This document shows positions 10,027 to 62,000 of a DNA stretch of 64,000 nt, in pieces (position 1 is the stretch's first letter; the number at the start of each line of letters is the position of its first letter). Source of the DNA: Owenia fusiformis. Lineage: Eukaryota; Annelida; Polychaeta; Sabellida; Oweniidae. Location of the stretch: contig CAIIXF020000010.1 in assembly GCA_903813345.2 (NCBI GenBank), positions 17,125,181 to 17,189,180 on the forward strand. The letters run 5' to 3'. The notes beneath the pieces are model-generated. The model was not told the origin of the DNA, did no database searches, and saw only the letters and a list, made by a program, of their open reading frames with translations. The position numbers were made by a program, and so were the translations under genes.

Positions 10027-13000
10027 TTAAAGACTGGATATGAATGCTCTTACATTGTTACAATCTATGAGGAATTTGGCAAAATATTTTAATATTTTAA
10101 TTTTGCTGTTCATGATCTCCTTTATTAAGAATTCAGGCATTAAGTTGCTAATAGGAATATTTTCAGCTAGTATTTTGAAGAATATTGCTCTCTGGTTTGT
10201 ATAAGAAGGGCAGTAAAAAATTAAATGTAGTTCATCCTCTATTTGATTTAGGTTACAATTTAAACAGAGTCTATCTTTTAGTTGTATCTTTTGTCCATTT
10301 TTCTTTTTGTGTCTACCAATTTCAATTTCTAATTTGTGGTTACTTAGCCTTATTTTGCATAATATGTTTCTAAGTTTGCTGTTTTTTATCATAAGGTAAG
10401 GCTCTTTTTTGAATTCAACTTTGAATAAAGAATATGTTCTTAGGCATGGGTTTTTTGAGTGATCGTTGATTAGAGCAAGCCATTGGTTTTTGTAAAGAGA
10501 TCTTAATTTATTTGATACTTTAAGATGAAGTGTTAAATATGATTGAATGTTAATATCAGATTTTAAATGATTATCCCACATATCTTGTAAATCACATTCT
10601 TTCAAAATATTTTCGATTTGTGACACCCATGATTTCCCACCGCAATGATAGATTTGAAGGTTCTGTTGATACGCTATATTAAGTTTGTGTTGAGATTGAA
10701 GAGTTAGTAATCGACACCAATATTTTATTTTTTGAACTTTCATTCTTATAATGAGGGGATACCTTCCAAATTCACCAAGTATTGCTAGATTTGAAGTTTG
10801 TGTTTTAACATGTAAAAGTTGCTTTAAAAATCTCAGTTGTAATTTTTCTATGATCTCAAAACTTTTAGATTGTGTAAGTACTTCATTACCATATTCAAGT
10901 ATTGGTAGAATCAATTTATCAAAAAGATTTAGTGCTACATCTACTGGTAGATTACCTAATACTTTGTAATAACCTCTTAGTTTAAAAATGGCTTTTGTTG
11001 CTTTTTGAGCTAAATGATTTGAGTTTGATTTGTGATTTTTGTTGGATAGAATGCAGCCTAAATATTTATACTCTGACACTTCTTCAATTATTTGGTTTAG
11101 GATAGAAAAGTTAATTATAGGTGTATTTTTCCTCTTTCCAAAGACAAGAACTTTAGTCTTTTTACAATTTATAACAAGACGCCAAGAATTGCAGTAATTT
11201 TCAAATGCATCCAAAAGTTTTTGTAAATAACTAGGATTTGGTGCACAGAGCACAATATCATCAGCCCATGCAAGATGTGTTATTGAAAGATCATTGATGA
11301 AGGCACCATATTCAGTATTTAGAGCATCCTTTACATCTGATATGAATAATTTGAAGAGGAAAGTACTGAGGGTTCCGCCTTGAATTATACCCACCTCATT
11401 TGTGAATGTATCGGTGATACCAGCATCAGTTCTAATGCAAGATTTTGATTTAGAATACATTGATTTAATGATGTTTAACATATTGCCTGTGATACCTCTT
11501 TGAATAAGTTTATATATGAGCATGTTTCTATCAATTAAATCAAAAGCTTTTTTCAGATCAATAAAGCAACAATATAAGGGCTCTCTGATAAAGACATGTT
11601 TTTCTATCAAATTATTTAAAATAAATAGATTATCAGATGTTCTACTAAATTTTTCATATGCACCTTGTAGTATGTCCTGTTTATGATTAGATACCGTATG
11701 AAATTCTAGTCTATTATGAAGAACACCTTCAAAAATTTTTCCAAGTACTGGTAGTACATTGATTCGTCTAAGTGTATCAGGGTCACTTGTTTTCTTAGTT
11801 TTGGGGATTGGAAAAATTAAGCCAAAAGCCCATTGTTCAGGATACTCATTTGTGAAGAATATATTGTTAAATATTTGGGTGATTATATTATTAAGGATAG
11901 ATTTCGATGATTTGATAAATTCTCCAGGAATACCATCCAAACCAGGGGACTTGTTAATTTTGATATTTTTGATTGCTTGATCAACTTCTTCATTAAGTAT
12001 TGGAGTATTAAGAATACTAGTTGGATCGTTTGCATACATATTTTCATATTTTTTGTTACTGTCAAAAGTGTTAAGAAAATCAATAATCTTTTCATTGTGC
12101 TTATCATTAAAATTATATTGTGTAGGAGGTTTGGCTAATTTGCTGAAGTTTTCAAACATTGCAGATGGAGATGCTCTTATTTTGACACATTCTCTGTTGG
12201 CTGTTTGGGTTGAGTTTAATAAATTCCAAAAGTGAGTTGGGTTATGATTTAGGCTATATAATAGATCATTGTACATTGTGTTATGAAAATGGCGCTTGCA
12301 CTTTTGCTTGTGACTTTTATATTCTTTATGTAGAGCACTTGTTTCTATTCCTGATTTTTCTGCTATGTGAATATTTGATTTCAGGCTCTTACATTTTTCG
12401 TCAAACCATTTATTTGCTGGAAATTTGGTGGTTTTATTTGTTAATTTTGTTTTGACAAAAACACCTTCTGCTGCAAGTGAGAGTGTTAAACTGAGTTTAT
12501 CAACTATGTGATCTATTGGACAATCCTGGTCTTTTAAGTCAAGTGATATTTCATGGAGTATAGAATTACATAATGGTGATTTCAGGTTTGATAGAAAAAC
12601 TGTCGATTTTGATTCATCCCATTTAAACTTAGCAATGTTAGTATATAAATCTGTTGTACAATTAATATTTGAGTTGCATGAAGTAGACAGTTTTGGAGTC
12701 AGTATAGAAAATGAGATAGGACAATGGTCTGATTCTGGTAATTTTGCCTGAATTTTAAAGTTTTGTATGTTCTTGAGAGCCTTTGATGATCCAATTACAT
12801 AATCTACCACACTAGCACCATTAGGTCTGATGCAGGTGTATTTTCCAATATTTTTGTCTTCACCCACTCTCCCATTGGCTATTTGCATATTTGTGGTCTT
12901 ACATAATTCTAATAGTTCTTTGCCATTTGTTCTAAGAATTTCTTGATTATTTATATCATTTGATGCCCTGTCAGTAAAAAATGAAGTGCTATTGAGTATG

Positions 13001-13623
13001 GGTAAAAGGTAACTGAGTTCACTGTCAGATCCAAATATTTCTGTTTCATAATCTGCCTTTATCCCCGTTCTTGCATTAAAATCTCCACATATATATATGT
13101 TTGAGGTACTACATTGTGCTATGGCTATTTCAGTCTCTAGAATCTCAAAAAAGTCCAGTGTATGAAAGCATGATTTCTTATGGGGAATATAGACAGTGGC
13201 TAGTAAGATGGGGTCATTATTTGGAATATTGACTTTTATCCATGAGAGAAAATCATATTTTTTGTCTAATATCTCAATATTGTTACAATATAGATTATCT
13301 TCTATCAAAATACCAATACCACCCGAATGCTTCTTATTGCTCTTTGTTAACTTAGCATGATTGATAAAATGGTACCCTGGTATGAATATGTTATCCTTAG
13401 GATTGATCATGGTTTCTTGTAGAAATATAATTTTATGGTTTTTGATTAGATTTTCAAAAATATCTGGGTCAGTCAGTTTATCACTTAGTCCATTAATGTT
13501 CCAACATAATATATCAATGTTCTCATTAGAATTCTCATTTGTTGAATCTGTGAGGTTGCAAGGGTATTTTGATTTGCCTGTAGTCTCTACCTCAGTTTCA
13601 GTATTCATAGTATAGTGACCCAC
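10027..13623 (-). CDS. LINE ORF2: AP endonuclease - reverse transcriptase
   Basis: About 1,198 codons counted from a GTG at 13623; the first ATG is at 13608 (MNTETEVE), the more likely start. The N-terminal APE-type endonuclease (about residues 35-305) has CWNINGL, FLQET, YICGDFNARTG, the VVDYVIG segment and SDHCPISF, the expected catalytic and DNA-contact motifs. The reverse transcriptase (about 540-860) has KSPGLDGIPGEFI, a conserved INVLPVLGKIFE segment, CCFIDLKKAFD, IIQGGTLS and the catalytic AWADDIV (Asp 788-789), then KTKVLVFG and YKYLG. Near the C terminus a CxxC...H...C cluster (C1120, C1123, H1133, C1138) follows the pattern of CR1/Daphne-like elements. It nicks target DNA and copies the element's RNA by target-primed reverse transcription. 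Every key residue I checked is present. Confidence 0.95.
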   Translation of the reverse strand: MGHYTMNTETEVETTGKSKYPCNLTDSTNENSNENIDILCWNINGLSDKLTDPDIFENLIKNHKIIFLQETMINPKDNIFIPGYHFINHAKLTKSNKKHSGGIGILIEDNLYCNNIEILDKKYDFLSWIKVNIPNNDPILLATVYIPHKKSCFHTLDFFEILETEIAIAQCSTSNIYICGDFNARTGIKADYETEIFGSDSELSYLLPILNSTSFFTDRASNDINNQEILRTNGKELLELCKTTNMQIANGRVGEDKNIGKYTCIRPNGASVVDYVIGSSKALKNIQNFKIQAKLPESDHCPISFSILTPKLSTSCNSNINCTTDLYTNIAKFKWDESKSTVFLSNLKSPLCNSILHEISLDLKDQDCPIDHIVDKLSLTLSLAAEGVFVKTKLTNKTTKFPANKWFDEKCKSLKSNIHIAEKSGIETSALHKEYKSHKQKCKRHFHNTMYNDLLYSLNHNPTHFWNLLNSTQTANRECVKIRASPSAMFENFSKLAKPPTQYNFNDKHNEKIIDFLNTFDSNKKYENMYANDPTSILNTPILNEEVDQAIKNIKINKSPGLDGIPGEFIKSSKSILNNIITQIFNNIFFTNEYPEQWAFGLIFPIPKTKKTSDPDTLRRINVLPVLGKIFEGVLHNRLEFHTVSNHKQDILQGAYEKFSRTSDNLFILNNLIEKHVFIREPLYCCFIDLKKAFDLIDRNMLIYKLIQRGITGNMLNIIKSMYSKSKSCIRTDAGITDTFTNEVGIIQGGTLSTFLFKLFISDVKDALNTEYGAFINDLSITHLAWADDIVLCAPNPSYLQKLLDAFENYCNSWRLVINCKKTKVLVFGKRKNTPIINFSILNQIIEEVSEYKYLGCILSNKNHKSNSNHLAQKATKAIFKLRGYYKVLGNLPVDVALNLFDKLILPILEYGNEVLTQSKSFEIIEKLQLRFLKQLLHVKTQTSNLAILGEFGRYPLIIRMKVQKIKYWCRLLTLQSQHKLNIAYQQNLQIYHCGGKSWVSQIENILKECDLQDMWDNHLKSDINIQSYLTLHLKVSNKLRSLYKNQWLALINDHSKNPCLRTYSLFKVEFKKEPYLMIKNSKLRNILCKIRLSNHKLEIEIGRHKKKNGQKIQLKDRLCLNCNLNQIEDELHLIFYCPSYTNQRAIFFKILAENIPISNLMPEFLIKEIMNSKIKILKYFAKFLIDCNNVRAFISSL

Positions 13624-13628
13624 TCTGC

Positions 13629-14387
13629 TTATTGCACTACATTTCTGTTGATCCAGATAGGGTCCAAAGAATCCATTTGATTTGTATTACTGTTATTGGA
13701 GCAATGCTTTGGTATGTTAGTGTCATTGAAATTTCGGGTTACATCGTTAGGGTACAGAGTTTTGAGTACATTCCTTGCTACATGCTGTCGTCCCTTAACA
13801 TTGAAGTGTAGCCCTTGTCTCCCTAGGATGCTCTTGTTATAGTCAGTTGTATTGATTCTAATGAAGTGTATGTCTTGCTTCTTACATTCTGATTGGGTAG
13901 CTGAGTTTATGGCGTCAATCTTGGTGTTGAGCTTGTGCGAGGCTGGTTTATCTCTCCGATAAGGTATTTCTACGACAGCTGTTTTGGTCTTGTTTGTGTT
14001 ACTAGTTGTTTTGAGGGTAGTGATTAGAGACTTCATTTTAGATATTGTTGTAGTTGTATTTTCGACGGTGATATTGTTGGTTCCACATTGTACAACCACA
14101 GTGTCAGGTTTCATTCGGCAAACAGTTTCAGGAATAGTGGAGTTGATAAATTCTATGGTTGCTCCTCCATGAACATTCCCAGTGGCAACGATTTTTTGGT
14201 TTGATTGACTGTTTATTGCTGCTGATATACCATAGCCATTACTGGCTGCAATGTATAGCATTTTTGGTGTTTGTCTTGGTGTTGGTTGTACAGATTGTTC
14301 ATCTTTATTTTCCTCTTGTATCTGTTTTGAATTATCTTTCTGCAAGTCATCAGTTTGCCATTGTGTAGCGCTTTCAGCAGTTTTCAT
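13629..14387 (-). CDS. LINE ORF1, 5'-truncated: coiled coil plus SGNH-esterase-like domain
   Basis: 252 codons from the first ATG, but the frame is open without an ATG for 48 more codons to 14531. Those codons encode a Lys/Leu/Ile/Glu-rich coiled coil (for example KLQIEKLKKEII), so the ATG at 14387 is internal and the true start has been lost. The C-terminal half resembles SGNH/GDSL hydrolases: block I-like MLYIAASNGYG (about 43-53, lacking the usual Asp of GDS), block III VVVQCGTNNI (97-106), and block V GLHFNVKGR (192-200, catalytic-type His 194). Such esterase-type ORF1 proteins are known in CR1-group LINEs and are thought to act in the RNP. The stop (13629-13631) lies 20 bp before the ORF2 ATG, compatible with termination-reinitiation. 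Confidence 0.8.
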   Translation of the reverse strand: MKTAESATQWQTDDLQKDNSKQIQEENKDEQSVQPTPRQTPKMLYIAASNGYGISAAINSQSNQKIVATGNVHGGATIEFINSTIPETVCRMKPDTVVVQCGTNNITVENTTTTISKMKSLITTLKTTSNTNKTKTAVVEIPYRRDKPASHKLNTKIDAINSATQSECKKQDIHFIRINTTDYNKSILGRQGLHFNVKGRQHVARNVLKTLYPNDVTRNFNDTNIPKHCSNNSNTNQMDSLDPIWINRNVVQ

Positions 14388-14574
14388 CTTGGACTGGAGC
14401 TTACTATTGAGTTTATCATTTTTCTTGGTAGTTGATATAATTTCCTTTTTCAGCTTTTCTATTTGTAGTTTTTGCTGTTTGCATATGTTGTTGCTTTTCT
14501 CTAAGGAAGCCCTAAGAGAGGTTATTGTTTCTTAATTGATCAATTTATCTTACCTAATATTATTATGATGTCAA

Positions 14575-27900: not shown

Positions 27901-28759
27901 GGTTGGACCTTCTTTAAAAAAAGTAAAATATCATATTGGTCAATCAGTTATTAAAAGGAAACAAAGTATGAGAATAGTTATCAAATATTCTAATAATATC
28001 GTTTATAAGGGCTTACTTTTTAATGAAGCTAATGACGTAAAAAACGTGGTATGACCAGGCCAGATTGGTGACAGTTTCTGCAAGGGCATATGACTTTTCT
28101 GTCGCCATCATGTTTCTTGCTGATCCGTCGCAATGATATTGGACATGTAGTAGTTCATACTACAGGCTGGAAGCAATTAACATGTTGCAGATGATTAGGT
28201 GATCTCGCGACTTCTAGTTTCTCGGAAATTTTGAAAAACTACATCTTTAATAATGATATTCCTTACACAGCGTTAAGAACTGGAATTGATGTGTAATTCT
28301 TATAAATATTTCAGATATTATGAGGGGTTTAATTGTTAAGTGTAAACTGCCATTGATTTTATCTATGATTTTACTTTTTTCAGTTGGATATAATTAAACA
28401 AGGGAAAGAGAGGCTTAATACCGCAAGCAGCTAGATTATTCCACCATGTAAGGTGTCAGATGGAACAGTGCTCAGGACAAGCAATAGGTGACAGAGAAAC
28501 TCTATTTTAGGATAGTAACCAGAGGAACATTGCACATCATAAAAGTTTTACGTCACCACAGACTGGCCATCAATTACCAGGCAATATGGAACTGCAGGAT
28601 CGAATATCAGAGGATAGGAGAAACTAAGACAAATAACAATGGCGGCCTCAGATTAATAATAGATCACCATAATGAATCTGTGTAAATAATCTATAAATCT
28701 AAACAATAAGGGGGAATTGATTAGCATGTGAAGAACAGAGATTCGTTAATTTAGATAGA

Positions 28760-29023
28760 ATGCAGAAAGCGGTCCGAATAAATGAGACACAACTCTTGTA
28801 TCTTGCCGAAAAAGCTCGACAGGAGAATTCAATCAATGGAAACTTGTACAAGAAAAGCGCAGATACTGGAAAATGGCAACAAAGATGGTTTGCGTTATAT
28901 CAAAATCTTTTGTTTTACTATGACAGCAACACGTCATCTCGACCATCCGGGGTTGCGTTGCTAGAGGGTTGCTATTGCGAACGATTGGTGGCACCATCTA
29001 AGGGCAAGGAGAATGAAAAACAG
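28760..29023 (+). CDS. RASGRF: RasGRF exon 1 (PH1, first part)
   Basis: Encodes residues 1-88: MQKAVRINE..., then [20 protein letters not shown] with [24 protein letters not shown] and ENEKQ. This is the first half of the PH fold. The donor is CAG|GTATTT (phase 0). The frame stays open past the donor to 29071, but that tail is intronic. Confidence 0.95.
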
Positions 29024-38000: not shown

Positions 38001-41000
38001 ATTTTATGGTAATTTAGCTGCTATTATGGGATTCAAAAAGGGTCTATATCCAAGTCAAAATACCTTTTGGTCCTTAAACACCCTTGGATTTGAGCCTAGT
38101 TTCTACAAAAAATTAAAGAGCCTTATTCTTTCAATGAATCAGACAATTTTCGAAAACAAAACCCAAAATTAAAGGGGAGATTACAAAGAGGCTTAAAATT
38201 CAAAATACCAGCGAAAAATGACACTTCAGAATTGATAATTGAATAGGACAGTTCTATAATTCCTCATGAAATCTGTCACTCATTGACATTAGCTCCTTTT
38301 ACCAATGCAGAGTTAAGCTATTTTCTACTCCCAGTGGGAATTGTCTACTGACATATATATGTCCTTCCTAATGGCCCCTCAGCTGCACTAAAAAAGTAAT
38401 TCACTCATCCGGTTCTCCTATGTACCTCTACAAATGTGTATTGCTAACATAGAGAAGCAATTGTATCAATTGGAGTCAATGGAGAAAGTAGCCCAGCTAC
38501 AAATGACCCTCTTTTATTTATTACTATGGCAACCTTGTGTCATCATGTTTCATTTATATCAAATTCTAATTAGTTATTATTTATGTCAATGATCCCTACT
38601 TTGTTACCAGGATGATAGATCCATCCTGGTAACAAAATAGATGAACATCTTACAATTCGAGAAATGTTAAGATTTGTTTATTTTCATTATGCAGCTCCAC
38701 TTACAAACTTGAAACTATAGTTTAATTCATTGTTTTTGACACTACCTATCATGTTTATAAAGACTTATGCACGATATTCTTCTATTTGTCACCAGGATGG
38801 ATTGTCCTAGTTACCAGGTGGGAACCAGTGTAAGTGTCGTATTACCCAGTTCAACAGAGGTCTTTTATATGTGATATGTAACTATGACGTTCTTGTTTAG
38901 GTATAGGGCCTCCCAAGGCAAGCTTTACCAGCAAAACTCAACATATTTCGATCATTAGTTCATATTGGTATAATTCTGCGTGACAATGCCGCATATATTT
39001 TACTATAATAGATTGACATAAGAAGAAAACATCAGATCATTTTGTCATTAGATAAGATACATACAACTCCAAAAATACTGTTCACTGCTCTTTATATATA
39101 ATAGGAATTTGAACATGGAATAAATGACAGCTACTTATGAAGGCATAAAATTCTGTGACTGCAATGCTGATTAGGAGCTAGATTCTGATCAATCTATTCT
39201 CAGTATTCTGATTAGGTGGTTAGATCAAAAGGGTAGATCAGAGTGTCAAGACTCAATAGGGTGCTCCCTTTTAAAGAAGTGGAATGAAAATGTTCACTAA
39301 AAAATGACAAAAATCAACAGCATTTACCATGTTTCAGAGGTAACTTAAAGATCAACTGTATTTTGCTATTTCTGAGAGGTACAAAGAAATCAACTGCACT
39401 TTTTCCATTCCTCATAGGTAAAAAGGAAATCAAATGCATTTCAGAGGTAACAAAACATAAACTGCATTTTCCCACTCCTCATAGGTAACGAGGAAATCAA
39501 ATGCATTTCACAGGTAACAAAAAATAAACTGCATTTTCCCACTGATCATACGTAACAAATAAATCAAATGCATTTCAGAGGTAACAAAAAATAAACTACA
39601 TTTTCCCACTCCTCATAGGTAGCAAAGAAATCAAATGCATTTCAGAGGTAACAAAAAATAAACTGCATTTTCCCACTGATCATAGGTAACAAAGAAACCA
39701 AATATATTTCAGAGCTAACAAAAAATAAACTGCATTTTCCAACTCCTCATAGGTAGCAAAGAAATCAAATGCATTTCAGAGGTAACAAAAAATAAATTGC
39801 ATTTTCCCACTCCTCATAAGTAACAAAGAAATCAAATGTATTTCAGAGGTAACAAAATGTAACATAAATTGCATTTTCCTACTTCCCATAGGTAACAAAG
39901 AAATCAAATTTATTTCAGAGGTAACAAAACATAAACTGCATTTTCCCACTCCTCATAGGTAACAAAGAAATAAAATGCGTTTTCCTAATTCTCAGAGGTA
40001 ACAAAAAATGCCACTGTATTTTCCTATACCTCGGAGGTATTATCTTCATCTTATTTACATTTACCAATGTGTTATGACAGAGCTTCCATTGCTTTATCCA
40101 GGTCTTTCAGCTATGTGTAAGAAGCTGTAAAAGTCAATATAGGGAAATCTGATAGCTTTCTAACATCTACCCTGGCTTAGTTATATTCTCTGCTACTTCC
40201 CCACCCTAGAACACAATTTTCTCTATAATATTAATTTTTTTTTATATTAAGAGTATATTATTGAATGTCTGTTTACTTTATTCCATGTTATTCCTTGTAG
40301 TTTTACTTAATTTCATGTTTTTTCCATAACCACCAGATAATGTTATTTACAGGGAGATCAATATTAGAACAACAATAGGCAAGCCTTGTCAATGTTCCTT
40401 TTCATTTATTTTTATTCCTGTTAAAGCGAGAGATTGAATAGTCTCGTATAAAACCCCGGTTTTAGTGTCACTGATCTTATTCACTTCTTGGAAGTTAAAA
40501 TCAGATAAAATGCAATCATACATTATTATAGCTAGTGTATGATTATTTGAATCATTTTGCTCTATTGTTGGAGCTTCTGCTTTATGGTTGTAGTCCTTGG
40601 TACCTATTATGGGGCATTTTATATATCATTTTTAAACCCAATTGTGTATTTTGTTGGACCTTTTACAATAATAGACCCTTACAGGGTATGTACTAATGCT
40701 GGACCTTTTATGTACCATTTTTGAAATCCTCATCATTTTCAGTTACTACTGACTGAGTGGGTAGGGGAATCTCTCTTTAGATCAGGAATATTGTTGATTC
40801 CTTAGCTTTATGTCGATAATTACCATTATAGATTAACAATTAGGAGAGCCTTCATCTTTGACTTTTATCATTTAAGATCCAACAAGAGAAAATTACATTT
40901 TCTGATTGGAACACATGCATATCCAATTTCCCTGTTCGATTGAGCAGTATAAGAAGGTTGATCGAAAATAAACTAACTGCATTTGCTATTTCAATATTTC

Positions 41001-59000: not shown

Positions 59001-62000
59001 TTGCTTATTCCACATGGGCAAATGGGCATTGGGATATTTTCAGTATCCTATATATTATCTTATTATTGTCAATATCTTTCTTTTTGGTGAAAATGATAAA
59101 TTATCAATCGATGCAATTATATATTTACTGACATGTTAGGGGGCATTTCCAAAGATCGATGTCAAAAAGTTAACTGTATTTGAATAGCTATGGGGAAGCG
59201 GGCCATTAGCCTTAAAAGTTGGGTTTCCATCTTTGTTCCCAGGAATTTTATTTGAACAATTTTTATTTGTTAGATATAAACTCGGAATTCTACAGTGAGA
59301 TACAATACAAGAGATAATCTTCTGCTGATACTATATAAAATACAGATTGGAATAATTAAAGAAAAATGACTATTACATATTATGTTAGATGTAGTGTGAC
59401 TCAATGCAGTGATGCATATCAACATTTCTCAGTTATGAGAGGAAGGGTGGGGGTTACATATTAACTGTTCAAATACAGTTAGTACCCATACATTGAACAT
59501 TTGAGATGCTATAACATCTTAAACAACGGCATATGGAATCAAACTGAGATGTGTAGGGTACACTAGAGTACATTACCAGAGTTTTTCAACTAGAAAAATT
59601 CCTTAATCCATTGTAGCAAAGAATTTGTGACAATGAAGTAAAAGAACAATAGACTTCGGAATCCTTAATATTATGACCTCCCACAGTAATATACCCTGAT
59701 ATATGATAAAGAAAAAGACTTCTTACAGGTACAGAGTTTCTTTCGAGGTTGGCTATGTAGACGTCGTTGGAAACAAATTGTAGATGAATACATCAGGTCT
59801 GAACATGCAGAGAGTATGCGTAAGCGGAATAGTATTGTGTTCGGTATGGTGGAGTGTGAAGAAGAATATGTTCAGCAACTTTCTACACTTGTCTCATGTT
59901 TTCTACGTCCTCTCAAGATGGCCGCCAGCTCTAAGAAGCCACCGATTACCCATGAAGATGTCAATTCTATATTCTTAAATAGGTGAGAATGTATCCAGGA
60001 CTCCAGGGTTTGTATAGTCAATACAATGAAAGGCCAGTGGAAACCAAAATTAATTTGACTTTGATTAAATAAATTATGGAAAAACAGGAAATTTCAAAAT
60101 GGCTTTGAAAATTGCTAAAATAGTCAGGAAAAGAAATCATGACAAAAAAGCCAGAAAATGCGGGAATTTACCACTAGAAATGTGTATCATTATGCCCAAT
60201 TTATGGGGATCGTCTATAAAAACTACATGTCCAGTGGTTTGTTTCTGCTTTCCATTGATAAGTTTTCCTTTTTATTAATTTTAAGAATATGAATATTTAG
60301 TTAACTTTAAATTAAATATGATATGGTATATAATGTTTTTCTTTTCAGTGAGACAGTATTATTTTTGCATCAGATATTCTATAAAGGCCTCATGGCTCGT
60401 ATGGAAAACTGGCCAACCCTAGTTCTCGGTAAGTTAACTATGTTTTTATTAACCAACCATTGCTTTGTATATATGTATAGAGGGAAATGTTTGACATGTT
60501 GCTCCTTTTTTCAGGGGATCTATATGAAAAGTTTCCCCCTATATTTGACATGTTGTTCTCTTTATTTTAGGGGATCTATTCGACACATTGTTCACTATAT
60601 TACAGGGGTTCCATTTGACATGTTGATCCCTATATTTCAGGGGATCTATTTGACATGTTGCTCCTTATATTTCAGGGGATCTATTTGATATGTTGCTCCC
60701 TATATTTCAGGGGATCTATTTGACATGTTGCTCCCTATATTTCAGGGGATCTATTTGACATGTTGCTCCCTATATTTCAGGGGATCTATTTGACATGTCG
60801 CTCCCTATATTTCAGGTGATCTATTTGATATGTTGCTCCCTATATTTCAGGGGATCTATTTGACATGTTGCTCCCTATATTTCAGGGGATCTATTTGACA
60901 TGTTGCTCCCTATATTTCAGGTGATCTATTTAACATGTTGCTCCATATATTTCAGGGGATCTGTTTGACATGTTGCTCCCTATATTTCAGGGGATCTATT
61001 TGCCATGTTGCTCCCTATATTTCAGGGGATCTATTTGATATGTTGCTCCCTATATTTCAGGGGATCTATTTGACATGTTGCTCCCTATATTTCAGGGGAT
61101 CTTTTTGACATGTTGCTCTCTATATTTCAGGGGATCTATTTGACATGTTGCTCCCTATATTTCAGGGGATCTATTTAACATGTTGCTCCCTATATTTCAG
61201 GGGATGTATTTGACATGTTGCTCCCTATATTTCAGGGGATCTATTTGACATGTTGCTCCCTATATTTCAGGGGATCTATTTGACATGTTGCTCCCTATGC
61301 TGGGCATATATCAGGAGTATGTACGCAATCATCATTACAGTTTGCAAGTTCTGGCTGAGTATAAACAAAAGCTGGAGTTCAATTCCTTGCTCAAACGATA
61401 CGAAGAGAAACCAAGCTGTGAAGGGAGATCCTTAGAAACCTTTCTTACATATCCTATGCACCAGGTAAATTTTTTTATTAATTAAATAAATGATAATTAT
61501 CAATGAAATGATGGAGGATAGTGGTGGATTTCTGGAGAGCTGCAAAGTACGTATGAGCATGGGCCACTCTTAAAATTACTTGTAGTTTTCATGATCCCAT
61601 CGAATGAGGTTAGGGGGATGTAGAGAATCGCTCCATCCATCCATCCATCCATTCATCCTTCCATCCATCCAACTGTCTGGGCAAAAACTCAAATACTGTT
61701 AGACTAATATTGTTTTTTATATTATATGCCTCATGTGAGTACAAGTTATGCTCGAAAGCTGATTTTCTTTATTGATAATAACTTCACTGTTTTTACTATA
61801 TTCTAGATACCTCGCTATATAATCACCCTACATGAGCTTTTGGCTCACACTCCGCATGACCATGTTGAAAGAAAAAGTCTTGAGTTTGCCAAGAGTAAAC
61901 TGGAAGAATTGTCACATGTAAGTACCTTTTTATCATACTTTTTCAATGGGATACTGTATAAGTTGTATTTAATCCGAGTGGTTAATATGCCAAATGGTCA

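Follow-up and report, generated by a model that had tools for sequence, protein, structure and literature searches.

Relation to known boundary arrays

Minisatellite-like duplications of intron-exon boundaries, termed mirages, have been described in lancelets, where splicing was reported to be regular (PMC3087553). The lancelet cases include Adh3, the globin genes BflGb6 and BflGb9, TnC and PGBD5 (PMC3087553, PMC3902484), PGBD5, Adh and TnC being mirages according to PMC3902484. The array analysed here precedes a RhoGEF-domain exon of a RasGRF-type gene; its unit spans the intron-exon boundary and the splice signals lie within the units, which are two of the features that mark a mirage in PMC3087553, beside regular mRNA splicing and a copy number unstable between haplotypes. 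Common to the lancelet cases and those reported here are minisatellite-like arrays across the boundary, located on the 3′ or 5′ side of the exon and containing an AG or GT in many units, as well as a normal mRNA to which no copy contributes except the one continuous with the exon body, as predicted here from protein alignment. The BflGb6 unit likewise consists of the intron end and the exon start. In contrast, it is 150–160 bp long and present in 3 or 6 units, whereas the RasGRF array offers 22 acceptors with a unit of 35 bp; the units of Adh3 measure 10–72 bp, as cited in PMC3087553 and PMC3902484. The RasGRF array also differs in belonging to another, presumably non-lancelet genome. An annelid is suggested by twelve large contigs (C1 of 62 Mb, C2–C12 of 32–42 Mb) and by three matches to PF16915 (Eryth_link_C), a domain typical of annelids, which lie within about 15 kb of each other on C6; COX1 gave no match. 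The kind of structure is already known from lancelets, and the RasGRF array is a member of it with many short units.

More distant systems share single features. The human ABCA7 gene harbours in intron 18 a VNTR (PMC5954066) with a 25-bp unit that has a donor-like GT at its beginning; one unit can be retained, resulting in a frameshift. However, the unit is intronic and not described there as an exon-boundary copy, and the main effect is skipping of exon 19, which rises with VNTR length. Extra splice signals also arise where exon DNA with splice sites is tandemly duplicated and an intron is gained (PMC3087553, PMC2812944), but the RasGRF array lengthens an existing intron and creates no new one. 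The exon-4 duplications of earthworm metallothionein, one of them inverted and all absent from the transcript (PMC12783039), offer a loose parallel only. A search of the open-licence literature found neither boundary arrays as a common feature of annelid genomes nor common mirages outside lancelets.

Architecture and sequence history of the array

The window, i.e. the whole stretch of 64,000 nucleotides analysed, corresponds to C10:17125181–17189180 of an assembly of 498,259,871 bases in 525 contigs. The array (60490–61270, plus strand) is placed between an exon ending at 60428 and the body of the RhoGEF-domain exon ending at 61464, and comprises 22 acceptor AGs which end at 60514, at 60570 and then every 35 bp up to 61270. 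The 22 tandem acceptors of the original prediction are confirmed by the AG positions, and TRF reports a single array (60542–61298) with a period of 35, 21.6 copies, 93% matches and 0% indels. The 35-bp unit GGGATCTATTTGACATGTTGCTCCCTATATTTCAG is composed of the first 28 bases of the exon and the last 7 bases of the intron; scores and positions also bear out that the exon's own acceptor and first coding bases were multiplied and that each of the 22 AG units contains a full acceptor. Pairwise alignment resolves the 56-bp step (60515–60570) into two units in which one 14-bp deletion removed an AG, and the AG at 60531 inside the second unit is not acceptor-like (weight-matrix score −11.66). A branch-point motif had been attributed to each unit, which is slightly too strong, as 15 of the 22 units contain the exact TTGAC and 20, the large majority, a yUnAy-type match. 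At the AGs of 60815 and 60920 the bases GTGATC follow directly, so that AG abuts GT. The array extends over about 0.8 kb with units differing by their own substitutions, and a DNA search of the whole 498-Mb genome detected no second locus of the 35-bp unit.

The units most unlike the consensus are the first ones at the 5′ side, at 60570, 60605 and 60640 (9, 6 and 3 differences), although the unit at 60955 also deviates at 3 positions; a rank trend of divergence along the array was not significant for 20 units (P 0.21). The 19 units from 60640 on contain 18 substitutions, and all of them lie outside the last 7 positions, where 3.6 were expected (P 0.018). Several of the 18 recur in two or three units, and the bias is a weak hint because shared substitutions reduce the number of independent events. 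The substitution-free last 7 positions and the preservation of the 21 upstream AGs could reflect a constraint on the decoys.

The gene and its exons

The first coding exon found (28760–29023, plus strand, its end read by eye) encodes a PH domain. The RhoGEF domain starts in the exon 59729–59982 and is followed on the same strand by the exon before the array (60349–60428, donor GTAAGT from 60429), by the 194-nt array exon (61271–61464; exon 7 of the original prediction), which is in frame only from the AG at 61270, and by the exon 61807–61917, in which the RhoGEF domain goes on. Pfam assigned the PH and the RhoGEF domain, the latter read through the last AG at 61270, and in the best three chains aligned the RhoGEF sequence matches that of BCR without an indel at the 61270 junction. 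RasGEF matches at C10:17211632 and 17212724, on the plus strand and about 22 kb beyond the window, complete the order PH, RhoGEF and RasGEF on one strand. The designation RasGRF-type rests on this order, the three parts belonging to a putative single gene which we take to resemble the known RasGRF proteins more closely. A different exon elsewhere would have spoken against the original prediction, but none was seen. The search for further exon copies returned matches above noise only from the three exons of this gene; within the reach of this search the exon looks single-copy, and no further copy of exon or repeat was seen elsewhere in the genome. Exon lengths around the array range from 80 to 254 nt, those of the introns from 342 to 842 nt.

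Tandem arrays (TRF score 50 or more) cover about 16% of positions 28000–64000 and 11% of the whole window. One of them, at 39311–40040 in an intron of the RasGRF-type gene, is built of units in which a pyrimidine-rich stretch with a terminal AG is fused to GTAAC; AGGTAAC is present 13 times, and the array resembles repeated acceptor-donor pairs without an exon. On the minus strand at 10027–14531 the window contains open frames of 1219 and 300 aa resembling a non-LTR retrotransposon (endonuclease and reverse transcriptase recognised by eye).

Reading frames and acceptor quality

When the two upstream exons were joined to each array acceptor and translated, all 21 upstream acceptors led to a stop inside the enlarged exon and only that at 61270 stayed open. 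From 61235 the frame runs into TAG at 61433–61435, 29 nt before the exon donor and with more exons following, and the stops of the other 20 decoys lie at least 181 nt upstream of that donor. Splicing to the last AG would give an exon of 194 nt, splicing to a decoy one of 229 to 950 nt. Translation and the indel-free RhoGEF alignment hence agree with the earlier statements that only the last AG keeps the frame and that 61235 leads to this stop. Because the stops precede the exon donor and further exons come after it, decoy-spliced products should be targets of NMD.

Acceptor quality was rated with a weight matrix. It was built from 80 kinase and kinesin regions of this genome, each contributing its best-looking acceptor, and this choice makes it lean towards good sites. 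Scores of the 22 array sites range from 4.89 to 8.47, equivalent to the 41st–86th percentile of the 80 called acceptors, and the three other acceptors of the RasGRF-type gene score 1.28, 8.66 and 3.51. The median array score is reached by only 9 of 1893 other AGs between 28 and 64 kb of the window. The array acceptors score like normal acceptors of this genome, and better than chance would give.

Boundary arrays at other exons

Tandem arrays repeating an exon boundary were found at 7 of 100 sampled exons and 8 of 200 match edges, in a small sample of author-selected regions, some of which are neighbours in one gene and not fully independent. The sample consisted of 60 kinase regions (L049–L108, the match plus 300 nt on each side) and 40 kinesin regions (L109–L148, 250 nt on each side). 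Five arrays lie on the acceptor side, in L055 (86 bp), L088 (51 bp), L135 (29–33 bp, 9 acceptors), L142 (110 bp) and L145 (154 bp), and three on the donor side, in L055 (71 bp), L072 (54 bp) and L139 (57 bp). L135 is the nearest twin of the RasGRF array, with short units of few intron bases plus the exon head and with all eight decoy AGs intact. Arrays near an edge but not across it (L103, L085, L086, L089, L104, L140 and L144) were left out of the 8 of 200, as were a duplicated acceptor of a neighbouring exon (L112) and a donor-side array without exon bases (L035).

An outer acceptor leads to a stop in the translated stretch in 3 of 3 cases in L055, 4 of 4 in L088 and 7 of 8 in L135. In L142 both outer acceptors do so, one of the two lacking the AG, and in L145 the single outer acceptor reaches a stop, as does its real acceptor, 85 residues in. 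The copies read in the donor arrays of L072 and L139 are open, and a wrong donor choice would therefore insert residues. Decoy donors are kept in 4 of 4 copies in L139 (GTAGG), in the only one in L055 (GTAAGA) and in 1 of 3 in L072 (GTAAG).

Outside the 100 regions, a kinesin exon on C2 (23266359–23269174) was noticed by its repeated rows in the family search, its head and acceptor being present 18 times at a spacing of 158–159 bp. In the stretches read (L149, L150), 9 acceptors are all intact, the last copy continues into the exon and every copy but the last contains an in-frame TAA; in L149 the outer acceptors lead to a stop in 3 of 3 cases. Related structures without exon bases were also encountered. 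Directly after the donor of a kinase exon, presumably LATS-like, L035 (C11 near 19329697, positions 667–1472, coding on the minus strand) contains about 35 copies of a purely intronic 23-bp unit beginning GTAAGTAATGAT. At 1900–2220 of L043, the intron downstream of a kinase exon's donor contains a series of CATATTTCAG-like acceptor motifs to which no exon is joined, and a 59-bp tandem unit with a donor-like GTGAGT was observed at C1:14327226–14327408 among the hits of a control pattern.

A genome-wide enrichment of acceptor words in arrays was considered and rejected. TTTCAG triples at 30–60 bp spacing number 7925 versus 2552 for the reversed pattern, but the control TTTCAC also yields 4592 triples, which leaves no clear excess; as single words, TTTCAG and TTTCAC occur 415 versus 270 times in 277,100 bases. 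Nine TTTCAG arrays from C1 were inspected for repeat structure only.

Probable tolerance, proposed exon definition and alternative readings

Of the flank bases of the sampled regions, 6.3% lie in arrays with a TRF score of at least 50, or 3.9% without the seven array regions, compared to 4.0% of the edges (8 of 200) and 1.8% of the exon-core bases. At a score of at least 100 the core coverage amounts to 328 bases, which belong without exception to boundary arrays and come from six of the seven regions; arrays lying wholly inside a sampled match were absent at this threshold and a single one was found at score 50 (L142, score 62). Boundary-crossing arrays are not visibly depleted or selected against in this small sample. 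Such a lack of depletion would be expected of a spliceosome that dependably selects the copy continuous with the exon body. Junction arrays are thus probably a mutational habit that splicing tolerates.

Consistent with these data we propose, with good though not full confidence, that the RasGRF array is a mostly silent passenger which arose by tandem duplication across the boundary and in which the exon-proximal acceptor wins by exon definition. In this scenario, a duplication of 7 intron and 28 exon bases would have grown into a 35-bp minisatellite of the lancelet mirage type, in which an AG may draw its branch point and pyrimidine tract from the copied exon head preceding it. The acceptor closest to the exon's own donor would be chosen, defining an exon of 194 nt instead of 229 to 950 nt, and the 21 decoys would leave with the intron such that the mRNA is correct. 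Rare use of a decoy would generate a premature stop and probably end in NMD. We infer each of these elements, i.e. the duplication history, the use of the last AG, exon definition and NMD, from the genomic sequence. The needed site is the last one in acceptor arrays and the first one in donor arrays, in both cases the one nearest to the other end of the exon, which fits exon definition and not a first-come or shortest-intron choice. Exon definition is plausible for exons of 80–254 nt between introns of 342–842 nt, and a tolerance by other mechanisms is possible. For the genome at large, we see about even chances that several percent of the coding exons carry arrays with mostly intact yet ignored decoys and that the innermost site pair wins.

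The 21 decoys with intact AGs, acceptor-like scores and early stops throughout, together with the substitution-free acceptor core of 19 units, might also be read as a regulatory arrangement, in which a sizeable decoy use dependent on copy number leads via stops and degradation to an adjusted dose of the Ras/Rac activator. The length-dependent effect of the intronic ABCA7 VNTR on splicing and expression provides a precedent (PMC5954066). The lancelet mirages, however, reportedly leave splicing regular (PMC3087553), and arrays of this kind are common at exon boundaries of unrelated genes, with a density close to that of the flanks, as would be expected for passengers. This recurrence favours tolerance over a device specific for RasGRF; a tuning of Ras/Rac activator dose by spill-over, as originally suggested, thus finds no support and we regard it as unlikely. 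More improbable still is a first-come choice or intron definition, by which an early acceptor would be used and most transcripts would be broken, leaving a hypomorphic gene or one rescued by another exon arrangement. The first AG would indeed create a short intron of 86 nt, but translation through the last AG yields a conserved RhoGEF domain, RasGEF matches follow downstream and no other copy of the exon was found among the matches above noise.

An assembly artefact, with only one or few units at the true locus, has very little probability in view of the distinct substitutions of the units, the array length of about 0.8 kb and the similar architecture at other loci. The least credible reading treats 60815 and 60920 as zero-length exons of a recursive splicing process, for which CAG followed by GTGATC at two units would be suited; GTGATC fits the general donor consensus poorly, and in 20 of the 22 units no GT follows the AG.

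Implications

Studies of how the spliceosome chooses among equal acceptors usually rely on short artificial duplications. The RasGRF array offers a natural test in which 22 complete and nearly identical acceptors follow one another every 35 nt, and the other exons add matched acceptor-side and donor-side sets. Invariable use of the innermost site would mean that position outweighs sequence in splice site selection; otherwise, the arrays would act as adjustable controls of conserved signalling genes. What makes the arrays interesting is less this single gene than their recurrence and the test of exon definition that they permit. Exons bearing arrays would mislead gene annotation and copy-number calls. 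If the pattern holds across the genome, mirages would extend beyond lancelets and be no rarity, and nature would have provided a large experiment on exon definition in which the competing sites are matched in sequence.
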